A stretch of DNA of 55,324 nucleotides from the NCBI GenBank assembly GCA_001898035.1, contig MKRX01000014.1, positions 71,664 to 126,987 on the forward strand, written 5' to 3'. This DNA is from Armatimonadetes bacterium 55-13. Lineage in GTDB: Bacteria > Armatimonadota > Fimbriimonadia > Fimbriimonadales > Fimbriimonadaceae. Positions 39,392 through 55,159 of this stretch are shown here, piece after piece (position 1 is the first letter of the stretch; each line of letters opens with the position of its first letter). Both the position numbers and the translations under genes were made by a program. Below the pieces are notes generated by a model. It made no database searches. It saw only the letters and a list, made by a program, of their open reading frames with translations, and was not told where the DNA came from.

Positions 39392-39432
39392 ATGAGACAT
39401 TGAGACATCGCGTGAATGTCTCAATGTCTCAT
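39392..39432. repeat. Inverted pair of (TGAGACAT)2 sites
   Basis: ATGAGACATTGAGACAT (39392-39408) is followed after 7 nt by its exact reverse complement (39416-39432). Each arm holds a tandem TGAGACAT octamer. Related single sites lie at 48947-48962, 50797-50812 and 55173-55189. Confidence 0.85.
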
Positions 39433-42768: not shown

Positions 42769-43917
42769 TTAGGCAGGGTCAGAGATGTCGATGATAACCA
42801 CGGCCTGCGGTCGGTAAACCACCGCCTCACCGCGCATCGTGCCGCGCATGGACTTCTTGCCCTTCGAGAAGTCGTCGGCGTTGTAGCCAACCTCAATCTC
42901 GGCGTCGCTTCGAAGACCGATGCGAACATGGTTCGTATCGACCGCAATGGCGGTGTCAGCGGGCACGGCGTCGTTCAGAAGAACGGTCTTGCCGTCGAGA
43001 GTCGGGTTGGTTCCCTCGCGCAGCTCGGCGTACAGGTAGTTGCCGTTGTCGTCCTTGGCAAGTCGCATCGCCGTGAAGTTGGCAGGGTTCATGATGTAGA
43101 GGTTGCAGTTGCCCGCCTTGCCCTCACGAATCTTGGAACCGCCCTTAATCATGGCGTCGCCGTGGTTCTCACCCGTGACGCGGGTGTACGTCTGAACGCC
43201 CGTGGTCGCGATGAGACCAAGCATCGTGTCAGAAGTGCCAGCGCCGTTGATAAACTGCGACTCGAAACGCTCGCGAAGCAGGTAGGACAGACGACCGTCA
43301 AGGAACGACTCAAGACCGTCGTTATCGGCAAGAACTTCGTCGGTGACAGGCAGAATGGTCGTGACCTTCTTTGCCACCGCAACCACGTCGGCGAGTGCAA
43401 TGTTCGCCTCGTTGTACGCGCCGCCCTCAGCCGCCTCAGCAGCGCCCGCCGAGATGGTCTCTCGCACGTACTTGAGTGCGTCGCCCTTAATCGGTTCGAT
43501 GTCGAAAACGTCGAACAGGTTAAGCTCGTTGCGCCGCGCGAAATCGACGTGACCGTTGCGGAAACGCTCAGGTGCCAAACCAGCGGAACGCGTGAATACC
43601 GCCTTGTACTCGATGCCGTCAACAAAACCGTTCTTCTTGCCGCCAGCAACGAACGCCTTACCAATTGTGTTCATCTTGATGCCCTCGTTCTCATCACCCT
43701 TTGCGTCAAACTCAGGGCGGGTGATGTCGTTTGCCTTGAGTTCGTTTAGTTCGTTGCGAAGTGCGGCAACTTCGGCCTTCTTCGCCTCAATCTCGGCAAG
43801 CTGGTCGCGGGTCATCTTGAACGCGCCGTTCTCATCCTTGTTGGTTTCGAACAGCGTCTTAATCTCCGCGCTTTTTGCCTCGATTTGAGAGTTCAGTTCT
43901 GCAATCTTTGCTTTCAT
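42769..43917 (-). CDS. HK97-type major capsid protein
   Basis: A 382-residue protein. Residues 1-65 are a charged coiled coil (KIAELNSQIEAKSAEIKTLF, RDQLAEIEAKKAEVAALRNELNELKA), the scaffolding delta domain that the protease would remove. The rest has the HK97 fold pattern: LNLFDVFDIEPI, AAEGGAYNEANIALADVVAVAKKVTTILPVTDEVLAD, RFESQFINGAGTSDTMLGL and CNLYIMNPANFTAMR. The ATG has GAGGA 6 nt upstream and follows the protease gene by 2 nt. A terminator follows. Confidence 0.9.
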   Translation of the reverse strand: MKAKIAELNSQIEAKSAEIKTLFETNKDENGAFKMTRDQLAEIEAKKAEVAALRNELNELKANDITRPEFDAKGDENEGIKMNTIGKAFVAGGKKNGFVDGIEYKAVFTRSAGLAPERFRNGHVDFARRNELNLFDVFDIEPIKGDALKYVRETISAGAAEAAEGGAYNEANIALADVVAVAKKVTTILPVTDEVLADNDGLESFLDGRLSYLLRERFESQFINGAGTSDTMLGLIATTGVQTYTRVTGENHGDAMIKGGSKIREGKAGNCNLYIMNPANFTAMRLAKDDNGNYLYAELREGTNPTLDGKTVLLNDAVPADTAIAVDTNHVRIGLRSDAEIEVGYNADDFSKGKKSMRGTMRGEAVVYRPQAVVIIDISDPA

Positions 43918-43919
43918 GG

Positions 43920-44780
43920 TTAATCCTCGAAATCGGAATGCACGAACTCGGCGTATGCGGCAAGAACGTCATCCTCGGCAACATAGTCATCGGCGACCGT
44001 AGTGTTGTCGGGTGTATCAGTTGTTGCATCGGCACTCGCGTCGTTCGCGGTGTTGCCCTCGGTCGTTGTTGCCTCGACTTCTTCGGTAACGGCGTCGGCG
44101 TCTTCTGTAGGCAGTAAGGCGGCGAGTTCATCAACGAGTCGGTTGAGACCTTCCAAGGTTTCGTGAACAGCGGCAACCGCTTTCTCGCTTAACGGCTTGC
44201 GCTTTTGCGCAACTCGCAATTCGATAAGGGCAGCGACACGCTGTTTGAAGTCCGCAACAGTCGTAAGCACATGCGCGGCGTCGTCGTCAAAGGTCTTGCC
44301 ACTCTTCGCGCCCGTAACAAGGGCTTGAGGATTGGCAGGAACAGTAACAACAGAAACTTCGAACAGGTCGATGGACTTGAGAAGACGCACACCCTCGGCG
44401 GTCGTCTCATCCTCAAGAACCACGTAACCAATCGAGAGACTTACGGATTTGCCCCGCGCCAATCTCTCGGCGACAATTGTTCGCACCTGTTGCGAACGCT
44501 CGTCAGAATGGAAGTGCGCGGTAATGCGCAACCCCTTGTCATCCTGTACGGCACTTGTGATACTGGCAACTGGTAGCGCGTCCCAATCGTGGTTAACGGT
44601 TATCCAACCGTCGCGAAGGAACACGTCAAGGTTGCCAAACGCGCCCTTCTCAACGACCTCGTTATGTCGGTCGATGTTGCCGAACGTCGATGCGTACCCC
44701 GTTAGGGTTCCGTTCTCATCAATGGTCGCGGCGTCGAGTGCTAATGCCTTGCGTTCGATATTCATAGTCGGCGAACTCAT
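43920..44780 (-). CDS. HK97-family prohead protease
   Basis: From ATG at 44780 the product is 286 residues. The S78/U35-type core (about 1-160) includes LTGYASTFGNIDRHNEVVEKGAF, the catalytic His in ITVNHDWDALPVAS and Ser in RGKSVSLSIGYVV, then FEVSVVTVPANPQA. The long acidic Thr/Asp/Ala-rich C-terminal region (EEVEATTTEGNTANDASAD) may act in scaffolding. It begins a unit with the late-promoter block 10 nt upstream and precedes the capsid gene. Confidence 0.85.
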   Translation of the reverse strand: MSSPTMNIERKALALDAATIDENGTLTGYASTFGNIDRHNEVVEKGAFGNLDVFLRDGWITVNHDWDALPVASITSAVQDDKGLRITAHFHSDERSQQVRTIVAERLARGKSVSLSIGYVVLEDETTAEGVRLLKSIDLFEVSVVTVPANPQALVTGAKSGKTFDDDAAHVLTTVADFKQRVAALIELRVAQKRKPLSEKAVAAVHETLEGLNRLVDELAALLPTEDADAVTEEVEATTTEGNTANDASADATTDTPDNTTVADDYVAEDDVLAAYAEFVHSDFED

Positions 44781-44790
44781 GTCTCGCCCG

Positions 44791-44796
44791 AACGTA
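44791..44796 (-). promoter_or_regulatory. Late-promoter block before the protease-capsid unit
   Basis: ACTACGTTCGGGCG on the minus strand; TACGTT is 10 nt before the ATG at 44780. Confidence 0.5.
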
Positions 44797-44819
44797 GTCA
44801 CGCACCCTGTTCAAACTGT

Positions 44820-45422
44820 TTACTTCGGTCGAAATCCTGTAACGCCGTCTTGCCAGCGAACAACAACGCACTTGCAATGCGTGAGACATTCGGTCTCGCC
44901 CGCGCCTGGGTAAGTCCAAAGATTGTCGGCGGTGTATGGACTGTCAGCCGCCATTGCAATGCAGTCGTCGCAATGTTCCGCGTCGCCTAAACGCCAAATG
45001 AAAGTTGACAATCGTGGCGAGTTGAGAACGAACGACTCGTTCGCGGTGCCGCGCATTCGGTGCGCATACATGTCGAGTCGCGCATTGATGTTCGAGAGGC
45101 GAAGGTTGCCGTCAGCATCGACGTAACGCGGGTCGCCCTCGGCAACCCTGTCGATGAAGTCGCCGAAGAAGTCCGACATCTCCTGGTCGGCAATGCCGCG
45201 CCCAAGAAAGTCGTCGTCGTCGTTGCGGGCACCATCGACACCAGCTCGACGCCGACCGAGTGACCAGGCGTCGCCGTGCGCATCCTGCAAAACCTCGTTC
45301 ACCAGGTCGCCCCACTGGTCAACGTCGATGTCGCCGCGCCCCAGCTCGTCGGTTGCCCGCCGCAATGCGGCCGAAACTCGGTCTTGGGCGGCGTGAAAGA
45401 CCGCGCTACTCGGTCGCGCCAT
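44820..45422 (-). CDS. Minor head protein (SPP1 gp7 / Mu gpF-like)
   Basis: A 200-residue protein from ATG at 45422 (GAGGGG ribosome binding site 6-7 nt upstream). A helical N-terminal half (AAQDRVSAALRRATDELG) is followed by FVLNSPRLSTFIWRLGDAEHCDDCIAMAADSPYTADNLWTYPG and a C-terminal CLTHCKCVV. The spaced Cys and His pattern is the zinc-binding end of minor head/morphogenesis proteins. It overlaps the portal gene end by 17 nt, the usual order. Confidence 0.7.
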   Translation of the reverse strand: MARPSSAVFHAAQDRVSAALRRATDELGRGDIDVDQWGDLVNEVLQDAHGDAWSLGRRRAGVDGARNDDDDFLGRGIADQEMSDFFGDFIDRVAEGDPRYVDADGNLRLSNINARLDMYAHRMRGTANESFVLNSPRLSTFIWRLGDAEHCDDCIAMAADSPYTADNLWTYPGAGETECLTHCKCVVVRWQDGVTGFRPK

Positions 45423-46737
45423 CGAGTTCACCCCTCAGCCGCTTCGCCTTGATTGCCTCTCGCCGACGCCAATGAGACTTGGCGCCCTCTGAGGCGCCCT
45501 CTCGACCAGGCGGTAACGGCGCGGCGGCGTACGCCTCGTGAATGAAAACGTCGTGTTCTGGCCCTACCCGATAACCGAGTTCGCCTCGACCTTCGCCAAG
45601 AGTGATGAGACCCGACTGATAGTCGGATTGAACGCGCGTATGAAGTGCGTCTTCATCCTCTTGCAACGCCCGCATGTCGGTTGTATCCCAACGGAAGCGA
45701 ACACCAGACTTGTCGATGTCGGGCAACAGTTGTCGATTTAGCGCGTCGGCAATCATCGACATCATCGGCAACAGGTAGTTTTCAACCGCCGCCTCTCGCG
45801 CCTGTTCGTAATTCGCGAAAGTCGAGACCTTGTTGCCACTTGCCAAACCAAGAACGAGAGGCGACACGCCGACCACGGCGCAAATGCGCTGTTCGACGAT
45901 GCTGACCATCTCGCCAAGCAACATGTCTTTTGGGTTAATGCCGATTGCGGTGATGTCAACAGGCAAAGACATAACGATTGGTTCGCCGCGCCCTTCTTCC
46001 GTAGTCGAGTCCTTGAACTTCTGCTTCAGCACGTCGGCAGAGTCAGGGTCAACAATCGCGTCGGCGTCCTTAACGGAAATCGCAACCGTCTGACCTGTTC
46101 TCGCCAACATGAGTTGCGAATATCGCGCGGCCTCGGTGTCAGTGAGAAGTTCGCGCATAACCGCGCGGGCGGGCGACAATCCGACTCGCGGGTTCGACGG
46201 GTCGATACTGTCTTTGATATGCACGATGTCGGCAACGGCGAACTCTTTAGGAACCGCGCCGCCCGTGTATCGGTAACCGTCGATGAACTGTTGACTACCC
46301 GCACGATATGTCGGCGTCACCTGGTGATGAGGCAAGTACCACAACTCACGCACCTTGCCGTTACCGTCGCGAGACTTGTAGAGATACGCGTTGCCGTCAA
46401 CGATAAGAGATAGCAACACACCCGACCAAAGAAGTCGCGAACCGTAGTAGGGGTTCGGCGTCTCGATGAGTTGTGCGGCGGCGTGGTTGTCGATGTACTC
46501 AAACACACCGTCGCCGTTCTTCTTGCCGACGTTAAGCGTCGCCTCACAAATGTTGCGTGATGTCCAACGCACAAGCGCCGCCATGACGCCGTTGTTCCAA
46601 GGCTGTTGACCTACCGCGTTCGGAGTCGTGGCGCTGTTACGCGCCCAACTGTCGCCGATGACGGTAAAGCCCTTTTTGTCGGTAGTCGGCGGCGTGTGCT
46701 TCGCCTTGCGCCCAATCTCTAAACCCAAAATGCGCAT
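45406..46737 (-). CDS. Portal protein (HK97 type)
   Basis: A 443-residue portal. WNNGVMAALVRWTSRNICEATLNVG, LLWSGVLLSLIVDGNAYLYKSRDG, ELWYLPHHQVTP, VADIVHIKDSIDPSNPRVGLSPARAVM and QRICAVVGVSPLVLGL all match HK97-type portals. The portal dodecamer is the DNA channel at one capsid vertex. It follows the terminase gene and starts with a late-promoter block 8 nt upstream. The C-terminus is Arg/Lys-rich. Confidence 0.9.
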   Translation of the reverse strand: MRILGLEIGRKAKHTPPTTDKKGFTVIGDSWARNSATTPNAVGQQPWNNGVMAALVRWTSRNICEATLNVGKKNGDGVFEYIDNHAAAQLIETPNPYYGSRLLWSGVLLSLIVDGNAYLYKSRDGNGKVRELWYLPHHQVTPTYRAGSQQFIDGYRYTGGAVPKEFAVADIVHIKDSIDPSNPRVGLSPARAVMRELLTDTEAARYSQLMLARTGQTVAISVKDADAIVDPDSADVLKQKFKDSTTEEGRGEPIVMSLPVDITAIGINPKDMLLGEMVSIVEQRICAVVGVSPLVLGLASGNKVSTFANYEQAREAAVENYLLPMMSMIADALNRQLLPDIDKSGVRFRWDTTDMRALQEDEDALHTRVQSDYQSGLITLGEGRGELGYRVGPEHDVFIHEAYAAAPLPPGREGASEGAKSHWRRREAIKAKRLRGELDGATE

Positions 46738-46781: not shown

Positions 46782-47213
46782 ATGGCTTACGAGTACAAGT
46801 CCATTTACGTGTACGGAATGACAACGGATGAGTTCGTCAATGCACTAAACGAAGAGGGCGAATACGGTTGGGTCTTTAAAGGGTTTTTTGGAACGCATGA
46901 AATCATCGGGAACAGTGCCCTCTTACAACGCTACTATGTGCCCGAAGAAGATGATGACGATGACGACGAGGAATTATTAACTCCTAAAACACGCGAAGAC
47001 GCTTGCGCATCGTTGACAACAAATAGGTCATCGCCCAAACGAGTGCATCGAGACGGTCGGGCGACTTCGCTGTTCTGTCATAAGGTGACCAACCGCACAA
47101 CTGTTTCTCAAGTTCGGCAAGGTTTGGCACGTGACGAACGCGCCCTTGTTCGTACAAGCCAACAACGGGTTCGGCGCGTCGTTCTTTGCCGCGCGTCGCA
47201 TACACCTTCTTGA
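46782..47213 (+). CDS. Small acidic DUF4177-like protein, overlapping terminase antisense
   Basis: A plus-strand ORF in the gap between portal and terminase genes. Residues 1-65 (MAYEYKSIYVYGMTTDEFVNAL, EEGEYGWVFKGFFG, then an EEDDDDDDEE tail) look coding and recall DUF4177-like proteins, which share the Y-E-Y-K start and an L-N-E-x-G-x-x-G-W-x-F core. After about residue 67 the frame runs antisense through the terminase 3' end for 230 nt with no protein-like signal. The true end may therefore differ. A TAGAAT box lies 10 nt upstream. Possibly a cargo gene. Confidence 0.45.
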   Translation: MAYEYKSIYVYGMTTDEFVNALNEEGEYGWVFKGFFGTHEIIGNSALLQRYYVPEEDDDDDDEELLTPKTREDACASLTTNRSSPKRVHRDGRATSLFCHKVTNRTTVSQVRQGLARDERALVRTSQQRVRRVVLCRASHTPS

Positions 47214-48288
47214 CGTTGGCGTTCGGGTCAACCGACTTGATGTTGTTTATCACAAGGTCGCCGCCGTTGTTCGCCTCGGCAATGATGAAGTCGGCGTTGT
47301 ACGACTCGTACAACTCAATCACCTTTGCCGCCCAACCGTTCGGCGTGTATACGCCGCTCGCGTCTTCCAACACGTAAAACAACTCATCTTCGCCGAGTGC
47401 CGCGACCACGATGCCCGTAAGGTCACTCTTTGCGTCGCTGGTAACAGCAGGGTCAACGCCGATGACGATAAACCGATGGTCGGTGACACATTCGCGGATT
47501 TGCGCGACGCCGATGAGTTCGGCACTCCACAAGGCACCAGGCGTGTCGAGTAAGAGTTGACCGTACAACTCCTGGTTGCCCATGCGGGTGCCCTCATACA
47601 ACTCTTTCAAGTAGTCGAGAGTTGACGCGGCGAGATTCGCGGCGTTGTCGAACGTCGAACCCTCGACGACGATAACGTTTGGTTCGCTGACGATTTGCTT
47701 GACCAGCGTTGAAGGCGTAGGCGTCGAAGTGATGAGACATTGCGGGTTGTCGCCAAGGCGTAAACCCATGCGAATGTTCATGTAGAACGTTGGCCCGTTG
47801 GAGTCATACGAACCAATCTCATCAAGCCAACAGTAGTGCGAGTTCTGACCGCGCGGCAGCTCGGGCATTTCAGCCGAGTAACAGACAATCAAGTTGTTGT
47901 TCGGCAAATTGACGATGCGTTGCTTCGACTCGATGTACTTGGGCCTGGTTTGCGGCGGGAACACGTTAACAATCGCCTTGGCAATCGTTTCGCGAATGTC
48001 TTTCTTAGTCGGTGCGCCGACAACGATAGTGAGATTCGAGTTGTTCTCGCACAACCACCGCACCCATTCGGCACCTGTTCGCGTCTTTCCCCAACCCCTA
48101 CCGCAACGACAAAACATCGTGCGCCAACCCTTCTCGGTGATTGGCATGAGTTGTTCGGGTCGCGCGTTCTGCAACCAGTCGTATTGCGCGTCTTCTGCCA
48201 GACGCCGCAAGATGTCATCAACCTCGGCAAGCTGTTCGGGCGTCAGGTGCGAGAAGTCGAGACCGTCGATGTCTTCGGGCGTGAACAC
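46984..48288 (-). CDS. terL: Terminase large subunit
   Basis: A 434-residue DNA-packaging motor. Walker A is GRGWGKT (residues 63-69), Walker B is CWLDE (Asp156, Glu157), and the coupling motif ITSTPTPS is near residue 188. The C-terminal RNase H-like nuclease has VIGVDPAVTSD near residue 275, AEANNGGD and a final SPDRLDALVWAMTYL. The GTG start lies 2 nt after the small-subunit stop. It is nearly the full family length. Confidence 0.93.
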   Translation of the reverse strand: MFTPEDIDGLDFSHLTPEQLAEVDDILRRLAEDAQYDWLQNARPEQLMPITEKGWRTMFCRCGRGWGKTRTGAEWVRWLCENNSNLTIVVGAPTKKDIRETIAKAIVNVFPPQTRPKYIESKQRIVNLPNNNLIVCYSAEMPELPRGQNSHYCWLDEIGSYDSNGPTFYMNIRMGLRLGDNPQCLITSTPTPSTLVKQIVSEPNVIVVEGSTFDNAANLAASTLDYLKELYEGTRMGNQELYGQLLLDTPGALWSAELIGVAQIRECVTDHRFIVIGVDPAVTSDAKSDLTGIVVAALGEDELFYVLEDASGVYTPNGWAAKVIELYESYNADFIIAEANNGGDLVINNIKSVDPNANVKKVYATRGKERRAEPVVGLYEQGRVRHVPNLAELEKQLCGWSPYDRTAKSPDRLDALVWAMTYLLSTMRKRLRVF

Positions 48289-48946: not shown

Positions 48947-48962
48947 TGAGACATTGAGACAT
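48947..48962 (+). repeat. (TGAGACAT)2 site
   Basis: TGAGACATTGAGACAT in the intergenic region upstream of the holin-terminase promoter. A weaker inverted GTGTCTC follows at about 48971. Confidence 0.8.
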
Positions 48963-49830: not shown

Positions 49831-49885
49831 GGTGACGTGTTTTCTTTACGGTGTGAGTGTGCGCGGTGAGTGCATAATTCGGCGC

Positions 49886-50494
49886 ATGACCACACCAGGG
49901 GAAGTGTCACCGTTGGTATTACAGTTCTGTCGGCGCATCGAACCCGACGCCGAACCGCTATATGTTCCCGTCGCGCCCCTCGGCGGTGTTCCTACCAACT
50001 TCTGCAACCTTGTAGTGACGGCGAAGGTTGCCCGCGACGGCGGCGAAGCTCTCTCGGGTTGGACGATATGGCTGAACCCCGACGTGATGATTGAGGCAGA
50101 GGCACACATGGTTTGGCGTTCCCCTACGGGCGACCTCATCGACGTGACGCCCAAGCCAGACGGCGAGACCCGCATTCTGTTCTTACCCGCGTCTCAGCCG
50201 CACTCATTCGCCCGCAACATCCCCAACAGGCGTCAAGCCCTGGTTGACAGCATCGAGACCCGCGCGACCGTCCGCACCTACGCACTTTACGACCAGTTGC
50301 GCGACCGATACTGGCGCGGCGCGGCGGGTGCGGTGATACCCGCGAACGAGTTGCAGCAAGTGCAGGACATGCAAGACGCCCTTATGCGCGGCGACACGCC
50401 CGACAATTGGTTTTGCCCGTGTCGGTCGGGCAAGAAGTTCGGCAAGTGTTGCGGGCGACCAGAAGGGACGGTTGCGCCCTATACGAACTTCTGA
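49886..50494 (+). CDS. SEC-C metal-binding-motif protein
   Basis: A 202-residue plus-strand gene among minus-strand phage genes. The C-terminus, NWFCPCRSGKKFGKCCG, is the SEC-C motif (CxC, 8 residues, CC) that binds zinc, as in SecA tails and many stand-alone proteins. The N-terminal 160 residues are unassigned (VSPLVLQFCRRIEPDAEPLYVP). CATAAT lies 7 nt before the ATG at 49886, which supports this start over a GTG at 49832. Probably a cargo gene; function unknown. Confidence 0.65.
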   Translation: MTTPGEVSPLVLQFCRRIEPDAEPLYVPVAPLGGVPTNFCNLVVTAKVARDGGEALSGWTIWLNPDVMIEAEAHMVWRSPTGDLIDVTPKPDGETRILFLPASQPHSFARNIPNRRQALVDSIETRATVRTYALYDQLRDRYWRGAAGAVIPANELQQVQDMQDALMRGDTPDNWFCPCRSGKKFGKCCGRPEGTVAPYTNF

Positions 50495-50796: not shown

Positions 50797-50812
50797 ATGT
50801 CTCAATGTCTCA
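50797..50812 (-). repeat. (TGAGACAT)2 site, minus orientation
   Basis: ATGTCTCAATGTCTCA, the reverse complement of the tandem octamer; a lone TTGAGACA follows at about 50825. About 60 bp upstream of the TATCGT box of the 74-aa gene. Confidence 0.8.
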
Positions 50813-51259: not shown

Positions 51260-51265
51260 AACTTA
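51260..51265 (-). promoter_or_regulatory. Late-promoter-like block (TAAGTT)
   Basis: GCCTAAGTT on the minus strand, 9 nt before the ATG at 51250. The GGGCG part of the block is not conserved here. Confidence 0.4.
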
Positions 51266-51892
51266 GGCAACCCGCGCGTCATCCTGGTCGTTGTCGCCGA
51301 GTTCGTCAAGCGACCATTCGTCAAGGCAGTCAGCGCCGACACTCTCGCGAATGCGGTTGATGAGACAATGCACGTATGAACGGCTGAGTTTCACCGTGCG
51401 CGAGATTTCCGTTACCCTGTAACCCTCAGAGAGTAGAACCATAATCTCTCGGTCGCGCTCATCAAGCGACTCAAGGATTTGACCGAGAATGATTCTCTCG
51501 CACAACTGTTCTTCGTCGGGCAAAGTCTCATCAATGCTTATGCCGTCCCAATCCTCGACGCCCGATTGTTCTGGTCGCGCCTTGCTTCTCTGGTTGAGTT
51601 TGAACAGGGCGTTGCGTATGCAGGTTGCGCAATAAGTCTGAGGCTGAAACCCTCGGTCGGCGCGGAACTTGCGAATGCCGTTGAGAAGGGCAAGGTTGGC
51701 GGCAAGACGCTGGTCGTCGCTGGTCGGGTCAATGAGTTGTTCGACAAGGTACGAGAAGATGTCGAACAACCGCGCCTCGGCCTCTCGGTCGCCCGCGTGT
51801 GCCCTGTCGAAGATGTCGAGACAGTTGGCGGGAATGTTCGCCGCCGCCTTGGGCGATTGGTATACGCGCCCGTCGCTGTAAGTCGAAGGCAT
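51263..51892 (-). CDS. Phage-encoded sigma-70-family-like protein
   Basis: A 209-residue protein with a region 2-like half (LFDIFSYLVEQLIDP, ALLNGIRKFRADRGFQPQTYCATCIRNALFKLNQ) and a region 4 helix-turn-helix (LDERDREIMVLLSEGYRVTEISRTVKLSRSYVHCLINRIRE). Size and layout fit ECF-like or phage sigma factors. It could direct polymerase to the repeated late-promoter block; that link is inferred. It starts on the stop of the previous gene (TAATG). Confidence 0.7.
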   Translation of the reverse strand: MPSTYSDGRVYQSPKAAANIPANCLDIFDRAHAGDREAEARLFDIFSYLVEQLIDPTSDDQRLAANLALLNGIRKFRADRGFQPQTYCATCIRNALFKLNQRSKARPEQSGVEDWDGISIDETLPDEEQLCERIILGQILESLDERDREIMVLLSEGYRVTEISRTVKLSRSYVHCLINRIRESVGADCLDEWSLDELGDNDQDDARVA

Positions 51893-53395: not shown

Positions 53396-53686
53396 TGATT
53401 GTCTCCCTTCGGGCGCGGTGAAGAAGTCGCGCCTCTAAGGGTGTCTTTAAGGAAAACTCACGTCTCGACCTGCATGATTTGCGCTCAAACACGTATTTTC
53501 TGCAACTTTCGGTAGAAAGGGCGCAACATGCAGGTGAAAGGGCACGATATGTATAAGTAAGGTAAGGCGCGTCGCGTGTTGGTAGCAGAACGGCGGCGAA
53601 GTAGAATAGGATTGTCAGGGCGATTGCCGAACGCGGGTCTGCTACCCCGTCGTAGGCGTCGCCCTTCCCATTGGTCAAGTAGCAGA
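53396..53686. other. Divergent intergenic region with a nested inverted repeat
   Basis: CCTGCATGATTTGCGC (53469-53484) is complementary, with a 2-nt bulge, to GCGCAACATGCAGG (53521-53534). TTTCT/AGAAA arms are nested inside. TAGAAT at 53602-53607 could drive the polymerase gene. In its leader AGGGCGA (from about 53617) pairs with TCGCCCT. TAGCAGAAC/TGGCG occurs twice (about 53583 and 53680). It is a candidate origin or control region. Confidence 0.4.
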
Positions 53687-55159
53687 ATGGCGAGAACGAG
53701 AGAGAGAAAGAGAGATGAGAATTGGAATCGGTACACGTGCGCGTACGTGACGACCTCTCACCGCGCGGCCCTGGCGGGACTCCTGAACCTCGACCTCGAC
53801 AACCCCTCTCACCGCGAACACCTACGCCTTGCCGACTACCTGTTGTTCGGCACCTCTCGCGACCGAGAGTCGGGGCAGCTCATCTTGTCGGTGCGGCACA
53901 TGCAGGACATTTGCGGTCGCAGTAAGAGAGGTTGGCGGTTGTGCGTGTACGACCAGGTGAAGGAGTTTGAGGCGTTGACGGGCGCGAAGGTGACGTTCTG
54001 GCACCCCATCGACGACGGTTACAAGTCGATAGGCATGGCCCGCCGCGTCGAGTCGGTGGACTGGGGAACCAACGCCGCCGAAATTGACCAGCTCGCCCGC
54101 GCCATTCGCCGAACCTCGGTGCCGCTCGACCAGCGGGTTGCCCTCGACACGGGCAAGAAACCGACGCGGGCGCAACTGAGGGTGATGAGAGAGGCGACGC
54201 AAGAAGAATGCCTTGCCACCATCGCCGAGTGCGGCAACCCTGACGCGGCCCGCCTTCTCACCTATCTGAACAACTTGCCGCCGCACCGCTGGTCGCAGGT
54301 CGCGCCGCTGGTGCCTGAACTCCGCGCCCTCGCCGACCATGAAGACAACGCCGAACACACGTTGTCGATTCTCCTGAAGACTGAGGCGACGCCCCAACCC
54401 TTCTATCGACCGTCGCCCAAGAGTGCCCGCGTGTACGCGGTCGGGTCGAACGTGTTGGGTATGCACCGAAGCGTTCGCAAGGCGTTGTTCGGTTATCTCG
54501 GTTGGCACTCGTTCGATTTGAAGTCGGCGCAACTCGCCATTCTCTCGGTGACATGGGACGTGCCCGAACTCCGCGAGTTCCTTGAGTCAGGGCAATCGTT
54601 CTGGTCGGAAATCCTCGGTCACATGGGTTGGGATGACTCGCGAAAGGAGTTGGTGAAACGCGCCCTTTACGGCCTCGCCTTCGGTGCTGGTCGAGACCGA
54701 CTCATTAAGGTGTTCGCAAGTGCCGAAGGCGACGACATCGAGAAGGGCAAGGCGTTGTTCAACCATTGGCGCGAACACGCATTGATTCGCGCCCTCTGGC
54801 TTGCCCGCGTTCGCCAAATGAAGAAGATTCGCGCCGCTGGTCGCGCTCACGACGTGTACGGCAAAGAGTACGTCGTTGTCACTCAACGGAAAGACAACAA
54901 ACACGGCGGCGACTATGAGGAGAACAACGTTCGGTCGATTCTCGCATGCCTTGCGCAAGCGTATGAGATGAAGTTGTTGGCACCAGTTGTCGAAGTGATT
55001 GAGAATGCCGACAAACGTGTTCAACTCACGTATTGGTTGCATGACGGGTTCGGCATATCTTGCCCTGACTCGTTGGCATACATACTCGATGAGATTGTTG
55101 AGAAGGTCAACTTCCAATGCAAGGCACTTGGAGTGCCTACGTCGTTGGAAAGAGAGTGA
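53687..55159 (+). CDS. Compact family A DNA polymerase-like protein
   Basis: From ATG at 53687 the product is 490 residues. The C-terminal half holds the polymerase A motifs: SARVYAVG before the palm, motif A FDLKSAQLAIL (like DYSQIELR), motif B RKELVKRALYGLAFGAG (with O-helix Lys and Tyr) and motif C YWLHDGFGI. No 3'-5' exonuclease domain is seen; the N-terminal 200 residues are unassigned. It probably replicates the phage or primes a special step. The last gene on the window; the plus-strand direction is opposite to the structural genes. A longer start at 53576 is less likely. Confidence 0.72.
   Translation: MARTRERKRDENWNRYTCAYVTTSHRAALAGLLNLDLDNPSHREHLRLADYLLFGTSRDRESGQLILSVRHMQDICGRSKRGWRLCVYDQVKEFEALTGAKVTFWHPIDDGYKSIGMARRVESVDWGTNAAEIDQLARAIRRTSVPLDQRVALDTGKKPTRAQLRVMREATQEECLATIAECGNPDAARLLTYLNNLPPHRWSQVAPLVPELRALADHEDNAEHTLSILLKTEATPQPFYRPSPKSARVYAVGSNVLGMHRSVRKALFGYLGWHSFDLKSAQLAILSVTWDVPELREFLESGQSFWSEILGHMGWDDSRKELVKRALYGLAFGAGRDRLIKVFASAEGDDIEKGKALFNHWREHALIRALWLARVRQMKKIRAAGRAHDVYGKEYVVVTQRKDNKHGGDYEENNVRSILACLAQAYEMKLLAPVVEVIENADKRVQLTYWLHDGFGISCPDSLAYILDEIVEKVNFQCKALGVPTSLERE

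Follow-up and report, generated by a model that had tools for sequence, protein, structure and literature searches.

The polymerase gene and the prophage that carries it

The window, that is, the whole stretch of DNA analysed here (55,324 nucleotides), comes from contig C14 of Armatimonadetes bacterium 55-13 (C14:71664-126987). Near its right edge, an open frame on the forward strand (53687-55159) runs from an ATG to a TGA codon and encodes a 490-aa product with the motifs of a family A polymerase (Table 1). With an in-frame GTG at 53576 as the start, the product would be 37 aa longer (527-aa form), and the ATG is considered the putative start. The right edge of the window is also the end of contig C14, 165 bp past the polymerase gene, and the prophage is therefore cut at this point. 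Left of about 25 kb, the genes of the window are those of a bacterium, with MutS2 and a radical SAM enzyme among their products. The segment with the polymerase also encodes an HK97-type capsid protein, a head maturation protease, a portal protein and a large terminase subunit; the polymerase is thus carried by a real tailed prophage in a Fimbriimonadaceae bacterium (Armatimonadota), and the placement of the gene on a phage in an earlier note, made from the sequence of this DNA, is borne out. A SEC-C motif protein (49832-50494, + strand; phrog_37148, 1e-15) is encoded in the reverse direction to the prophage genes around it.

Table 1. Features of the prophage polymerase, of the segment that carries it and of the associated AAA+ family (window positions unless a locus is named)
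Feature	Position	Strand	Evidence or remark
Compact family A polymerase gene (TV-Pol-like), 490 aa	53687..55159	+	ORF, fold, family profile hits among family A polymerases of the PDB
N-terminal half up to R248	53687..54430	+	No family match or confident fold
R248, invariant Arg, Klenow R668 equivalent	54428..54430	+	19/19 members; equivalence by alignment
Motif A, D277-LKSAQLAI	54515..54541	+	D277 = catalytic Asp; Q282 at Pol I steric-gate Glu (E710) position
Motif B (fingers), K324-RALYGLAFGAG	54656..54691	+	K324/Y328/F332/G333 = K758/F762/Y766/G767 equivalents
Motif C, LHDG, H452-D453-G454	55040..55048	+	D453 = catalytic Asp; Gly replaces Pol I Glu (HDE)
16-bp repeat just past polymerase stop codon	55174..55189	+	Exact copy
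Two 16-bp repeat copies, starts 39393 and 39416	39393..39431	.	Inverted orientation
16-bp repeat	48947..48962	+	Intergenic gap
16-bp repeat	50797..50812	-	Intergenic gap
16-bp repeats on C3 end	L152 4287 and 5923
HK97-type major capsid protein	42769..43917	-	phrog_10 2.6e-49, PF05065 1.8e-32
Head maturation protease	43920..44801	-	phrog_80 3.7e-40
Portal protein	45406..46737	-	phrog_2662 4e-54, PF04860 3.6e-49
Terminase large subunit	46984..48288	-	phrog_979 3.9e-33, PF17289 6.5e-20
Sigma-factor-like regulator, prophage early region	51263..51892	-	phrog_351 3.9e-8
Last 15 bp of contig C14	55310..55324	.	Overlap with reverse complement of contig C3 end
Prophage AAA+ ATPase	L152 3338-4294	-	phrog_1250 (unknown function), weak clamp-loader match
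AAA+ family members	L075 9881-10699; L077 7270-8085; L181 6648-7544

The other end of the prophage very probably lies on contig C3, as indicated by the 15-bp terminal overlap between the two contigs and by a 16-bp repeat confined to both pieces. The C3 end (locus L152) encodes an amidase (phrog_822, 4.3e-12), an AAA+ ATPase and a tyrosine integrase (phrog_1, 1.1e-23). When C14 and C3 are joined, the amidase gene comes next after the polymerase gene, and after it, on the strand of the polymerase, the AAA+ gene.

The genome (4.5 Mb) contains seven exact copies of the 16-bp repeat, TGAGACATTGAGACAT. Five of them lie in the prophage part of C14 and two in the last 2 kb of C3; elsewhere there are zero further copies, and a reversed control pattern gave 0 matches. 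All seven copies are intergenic or close to prophage gene starts, an arrangement that resembles dispersed operators (stoperator-like) or origin sites. As for iterons beside the polymerase gene, only a weak pair of adjacent 21-nt direct repeats (76%) was found at 53502-53543; this pair lies in the divergent intergenic region upstream of the gene.

Active-site residues

Nine residues of the protein (R248, R264, D277, K324, G333, Q424, E427, D453 and G454) are invariant in an alignment of 19 family members, two of which are at least 60% identical to another member. The Klenow equivalents given by alignment are R668, D705, K758, G767, Q849 and D882, while Q282 takes the position of E710 and G454 that of E883; these equivalences follow from the sequence alignments and the usual Klenow numbering. 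The position of the steric gate is filled by Gln in 18 of the 19 members and by His in one, and Tyr is found at the position of Y328 in 18 of 19. The fingers motif reads K-xxx-K in 17 members and R-xxx-K in the remaining two (TV-Pols, the compact mobile-element polymerases considered below, have RxxxK). At motif C, the family shows [HYF]DG where Pol I has HDE.

Assignment to family A

Taken as a single sequence, the 490-aa protein has no match in Pfam, PHROGs, NCBIfam, PDB sequences, 50,697 phage genomes or IMG/VR, and comparison with Pfam DNA_pol_A (PF00476) gives no match at E 1. The assignment comes from the family as a group and from the fold. A profile of nine members reaches Pol nu in the PDB (E 3e-5) and Taq Pol I (E about 0.02-0.04), and in the matches to PDB polymerases the Asp of motif A, the Lys of motif B and the Asp of motif C fall in the same register. 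The AlphaFold model, computed from an alignment of four sequences, is confident from about residue 258/270 to residue 490 (block pLDDT mostly 71-94), with the exception of loop 400-411 (pLDDT <50). Its C-terminal part can be superposed on Bst Pol I (VIA-align Z 15.8, 218 residues aligned) and matches Taq Pol I (Foldseek E 3.6e-8). Profile register, predicted fold and invariant catalytic residues together place the protein, as palm and fingers, in family A far beyond chance.

The protein is not the housekeeping enzyme of its host, since the host has a separate Pol I on contig C15; this Pol I is the sole PF00476 match, and the prophage gene is not one. The features that mark a Pol I orthologue (PolA1), namely a Pfam match, exonuclease domains and the combination of E710 with HDE, were not found in it.

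Most of what the earlier note had described at this locus holds. The 490-aa frame with motifs A, B and C is confirmed by the ORF, the profile register, the fold and conservation across the 19 members, and the protein is indeed much shorter than Pol I. Motif A is unusual, as claimed, its odd feature being the Gln at the position of the steric-gate Glu. Of the checks suggested at the time, structure prediction yields a palm fold of the Pol I type in the C-terminal part, and the HMM search reaches family A with the family profile, the protein alone having no match.

The N-terminal half

The N-terminal half, up to R248, may contain the thumb as well as an accessory domain. In two AlphaFold runs (alignments of three to four sequences), residues 1-260 have pLDDT <50 and give no usable fold. 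Comparison with the exonuclease/thumb region of Pol I detects no similarity (hhalign E 0.51), and the N-terminal halves of the family and of three TV-Pol representatives, compared in isolation, are not significantly similar (hhalign E 0.1). An apparent TV-Pol similarity reaching into this half, obtained with unsplit hhalign profiles, was dropped, split profiles giving E 0.1. In one relative (L076), the N-terminal part matches a winged helix. The small size and the N-terminal half devoid of detectable Pol I similarity support, at the level of sequence, the exonuclease-less character proposed in the earlier note. Its suggestion of an own accessory domain stands only insofar as this half has no assignment, and in L076 a winged-helix match is found instead.

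Comparison with TV-Pols and other family A polymerases

Compact family A polymerases of mobile elements have been known since 2008, when TV-Pols were described as exonuclease-less proteins of 400-600 aa in transposons, viruses and the cyanophage Ma-LMM01 (Iyer, Abhiman and Aravind 2008, PMC2579912). Their genes neighbour integrases, resolvases and restriction operons, and the proteins were predicted to both prime and polymerise (PMC2579912). Three representatives were used here, i.e. MAP_030 of Ma-LMM01 (506 aa, adjoining transposases) and homologues from Polaromonas and Calothrix plasmids. MAP_030 was taken as the TV-Pol of Ma-LMM01 by its motif and its transposase neighbour; no other Ma-LMM01 protein matches the wider family profile better, although the E value is only 0.015 in an unfiltered search. 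On the Calothrix (plasmid6, L091) and Polaromonas (pH8NP1, L092) plasmids, of 11-14 kb and with resolvase genes, the TV-Pol genes are unannotated or misnamed.

Aligned with the three TV-Pols, the polymerase domain of the family gives an hhalign E of 4.5e-15 and a score of 106; with 31 Armatimonadota Pol I sequences it gives E 1.6e-10 and a score of 77. The domain is thus closer to these representatives than to Pol I. In the tree, whose branches are very long, the family forms its own clade (support 99/93), next to Pol I (97/95) and the weakly grouped TV-Pols (83/31); it may lie inside TV-Pol or be a sister branch. Like TV-Pols, the family is compact, has no detectable nuclease domains, occurs on mobile elements and phages near integrases or resolvases and restriction genes, and keeps the hairpin Arg and the two Asp invariant. 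The Q/H gate and the HDG of motif C are also common to the family and the three representatives, in which motif C reads QHDG. It differs from TV-Pols in its recurrent small AAA+ partner and in an N-terminal half that is not detectably homologous in isolation, and it appears to differ in its fingers motif (K/R-xxx-K instead of RxxxK). Fusion or linkage to a D5-like helicase, a further TV-Pol trait, was not seen among the prophage and neighbouring genes scanned, where the AAA+ protein is of another family.

A second point of comparison is provided by the SCC elements. CCPol of SCCmec, counted among TV-Pols, was shown to polymerise and, in complex with MP, to prime (PMC7581432), and this work was later extended to PolA-SSB pairs of Bacillota (Rice 2023, PMC10061031). 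The prophage family resembles these CCPol-MP and PolA-SSB systems (Bebel 2020, PMC7581432; PMC10061031) in that a family A polymerase of a mobile element, with nuclease domains truncated or lost, belongs to a replication module, a putative one in the case of the family. In contrast, CCPol keeps E174 and F225 where the family has Gln and Tyr (E710 and F762 positions), and the CCPol/PolA-SSB operons, from Bacillota hosts, include an OB-fold SSB and a D5/DUF927 helicase. No OB-fold SSB gene was recognised adjoining the polymerase, OB folds being of the kind that calls for structure prediction, and a general scan of the prophage and neighbouring genes yielded no replicative helicase of the D5/DUF927 type.

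Bacterial Pol I and the PolA1-PolA3 groups share with the family the palm and fingers fold and the catalytic residues, but no nuclease domain is detectable in the family. In the bacterial groups, a 5'-3' nuclease is found in PolA1 and an active or inactive 3'-5' exonuclease in PolA1-PolA3, as stated in the section considered here of a 2026 survey of bacterial polymerases (PMC12926913); that section describes no compact exonuclease-less A-family group.

Distribution and neighbourhoods of the relatives

Family profile searches identify carriers in nine of 85 Fimbriimonadaceae and 14 of 291 Armatimonadota genomes, a sparse distribution that, in these searches, is a mobile pattern. Members outside Armatimonadota occur on plasmid pDEIPE01 of Deinococcus peraridilitoris, on Synechococcus elongatus plasmids (24 and 31.6 kb) and on two IMG/VR phage contigs. 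The latter (L030 and L031) were found with an exact DNA pattern for motif A; two further exact DNA patterns gave no new loci. The nine-member alignment being too diverse for a degenerate scan of the collections, closer subsets were used, and these gained a single genome locus and no viral loci. The CyRepX proteins of cyanobacterial plasmids, considered as possible relatives, were rejected as they are described as helicase-like (PMC10899382).

The neighbourhoods point to mobile elements of several types. Two distinct 24-kb S. elongatus plasmids have a common block of ParA, ParB and polymerase and different CRISPR cargo (type I-E versus I-MYXAN); no other Rep is found among their listed genes in the PLSDB gene table, which is incomplete. 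The 31.6-kb plasmid pIITB7_1 has a CyRepA1 gene as well as the polymerase relative. Among the chromosomal relatives, tyrosine recombinases adjoin the polymerase in L076, L080, L083 and L084, all from a recombinase cluster common with plasmids; L075 has a separate tyrosine recombinase outside this cluster. Defence genes are frequent: DISARM genes follow soon after the polymerase in the islands L072 (8433-17495; DrmD/DrmMI) and L073 (7943-12727; DrmD), type I restriction genes are near it in L074, L075 and L077, and the Synechococcus plasmids with relatives have CRISPR or DISARM aboard. In phage contigs L042 (6180-8628) and L043, a polymerase stands among head and tail genes (Mu-like by eye) and is followed by a DUF3223 gene, in the manner of an inserted cassette.

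The distinct phage/plasmid branch suggested in the earlier note is supported by the position of the family on its own side of the tree (99/93), apart from Pol I and the three TV-Pols, and the proposed setting by members on plasmids, phage contigs, prophages and integrase-linked islands. The note had named close similarity to an already described family as evidence against its claim, and such kinship is found in part: compact exonuclease-less family A polymerases of mobile elements are the TV-Pols known since 2008.

A recurrent AAA+ partner

In elements of Armatimonadota, the polymerase repeatedly occurs together with a small AAA+ family. The prophage AAA+ protein is 31% identical to those of L075 and L077 (E about 1e-36), and in these two loci the AAA+ gene overlaps the start of the polymerase gene. 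A profile of three AAA+ members finds five of the 291 Armatimonadota genomes, four of which are polymerase carriers (hypergeometric P 1.7e-5, shared ancestry of the genomes being ignored). One of the four carriers is G016 (C6:30655-32019; L014, L178, L180), where the polymerase gene and the AAA+ gene are neighbours, each broken by stop codons, with type I restriction genes close by. In the fifth genome, G012, the AAA+ gene adjoins what by eye is a type I restriction gene, with no recognisable polymerase. At most other polymerase loci, the partner is absent within about 9 kb. By eye, the C-terminal stretch of the AAA+ protein is HTH-like.

Possible functions

The fold, the intact catalytic residues, the prophage or mobile-element context and the recurrent AAA+ pairing are best explained by a catalytically active DNA polymerase of family A, of the TV-Pol type and lacking proofreading, that probably replicates prophage DNA after excision, together with the AAA+ ATPase. 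The polymerase would be the prophage's own low-fidelity replicase, and the ATPase, whose gene lies some 2 kb past that of the polymerase on the far side of the contig gap, would bind the origin or serve as a loader. On plasmids, the relatives would be the Rep or work with it. More speculatively, the enzyme could synthesize its own primers in the manner of CCPol-MP, helped by the Gln gate, the N-terminal half or a partner; priming is plausible by analogy with CCPol-MP (PMC7581432) and in line with the TV-Pol prediction (PMC2579912). Several points speak against the replicase reading: the general scan of the prophage found neither a D5/DUF927-type helicase nor an SSB partner, and the AAA+ gene is absent near most other polymerase loci. 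Another Rep is present on pIITB7_1 (CyRepA1) and, with a TV-Pol, on Polaromonas pH8NP1 (RepA), so that initiation may lie with a protein other than the polymerase. The changes E710->Q and HDE->HDG might lower activity.

A bolder version of this scheme would make the polymerase a self-sufficient initiator-replicase that starts DNA de novo without D5 helicase or SSB, is guided to the origin by the AAA+ protein (possibly through the 16-bp repeats), begins with a ribonucleotide admitted by the Gln gate, and serves as the Rep of cyanobacterial CRISPR plasmids and defence islands. We regard it as rather unlikely.

The coexistence with another Rep on pIITB7_1 and, for a TV-Pol, on pH8NP1 agrees with a more modest role, in which the polymerase fills lagging strands, repairs DNA or takes the place of host Pol I as fitness cargo, replication being left to the host machinery and another Rep; TV-Pols are not known to be essential for their elements. 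However, the host already possesses a Pol I, the prophage gene has no detectable nuclease domain of the kind needed for Pol I gap repair, and the AAA+ pairing and the replication and partition neighbourhoods are at odds with such a role, which makes it improbable.

The nature of the product can also be questioned. An RNA polymerase or a pure primase making RNA primers, instead of a DNA polymerase, has in its favour a Gln gate that removes the main exclusion of ribonucleotides, and Q/H at the E710 position with HDG at motif C is seen in both the family and the three TV-Pol representatives. T7-type RNA polymerases likewise have no steric-gate Glu. Nevertheless, Y328 in motif B stands at the position filled by Tyr in T7 DNA polymerase. 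CCPol, so far alone among the relatives in having been characterised, synthesizes DNA primers and has retained its Glu (PMC7581432). An RNA product thus seems a doubtful prospect. Least probable of all is a component of anti-phage defence: the DISARM, type I restriction and CRISPR genes near the relatives vary by locus and belong to three unrelated kinds, as expected of cargo, none lies beside the polymerase in the window prophage or in phage contigs L042 and L043, and restriction cargo near TV-Pols was already noted in 2008 (PMC2579912), which is why this association is put down to cargo.

Novelty and significance

An exonuclease-less family A polymerase of mobile elements with a possible primase activity is a kind already known, first from TV-Pols in 2008 and then from the CCPol/PolA-SSB primases. 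What looks undescribed is the branch with a Gln gate, an HDG motif C and an AAA+ partner that is found in Armatimonadota, Deinococcus, Synechococcus plasmids and phage contigs; in the open-licence TV-Pol literature, no description of this branch, its residue signature or its AAA+ partner was found. For primases of family A, as opposed to the two canonical families, the CCPol-MP system is at present the foundation. A further branch, distant in sequence and with another steric gate, no evident SSB and another AAA+ protein, would put to the test whether exonuclease-less family A polymerases are generally able to prime. The branch, which spans prophages, defence islands and small plasmids of Synechococcus elongatus, a cyanobacterium that is easy to handle in the laboratory, is also a candidate Rep for plasmids that list none. 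In plasmid records its polymerases are annotated as 'hypothetical', and these labels, together with the missing Pfam and PHROGs matches, make it likely that the branch is under-counted.

Some of its residues recur in phage PolA proteins, which typically possess a 3'-5' exonuclease. The motif B pattern KxxxYGxxxGAG is shared with T7-type phage PolA, and motif A is near the DLSSAQLAI of a phage PolA of more than 900 aa from IMG/VR (L039 1900-4623, - strand), in which a Gln steric gate is thus found in a full-length polymerase. The N-terminal stretch of this L039 protein is, by eye, uracil-DNA-glycosylase-like.
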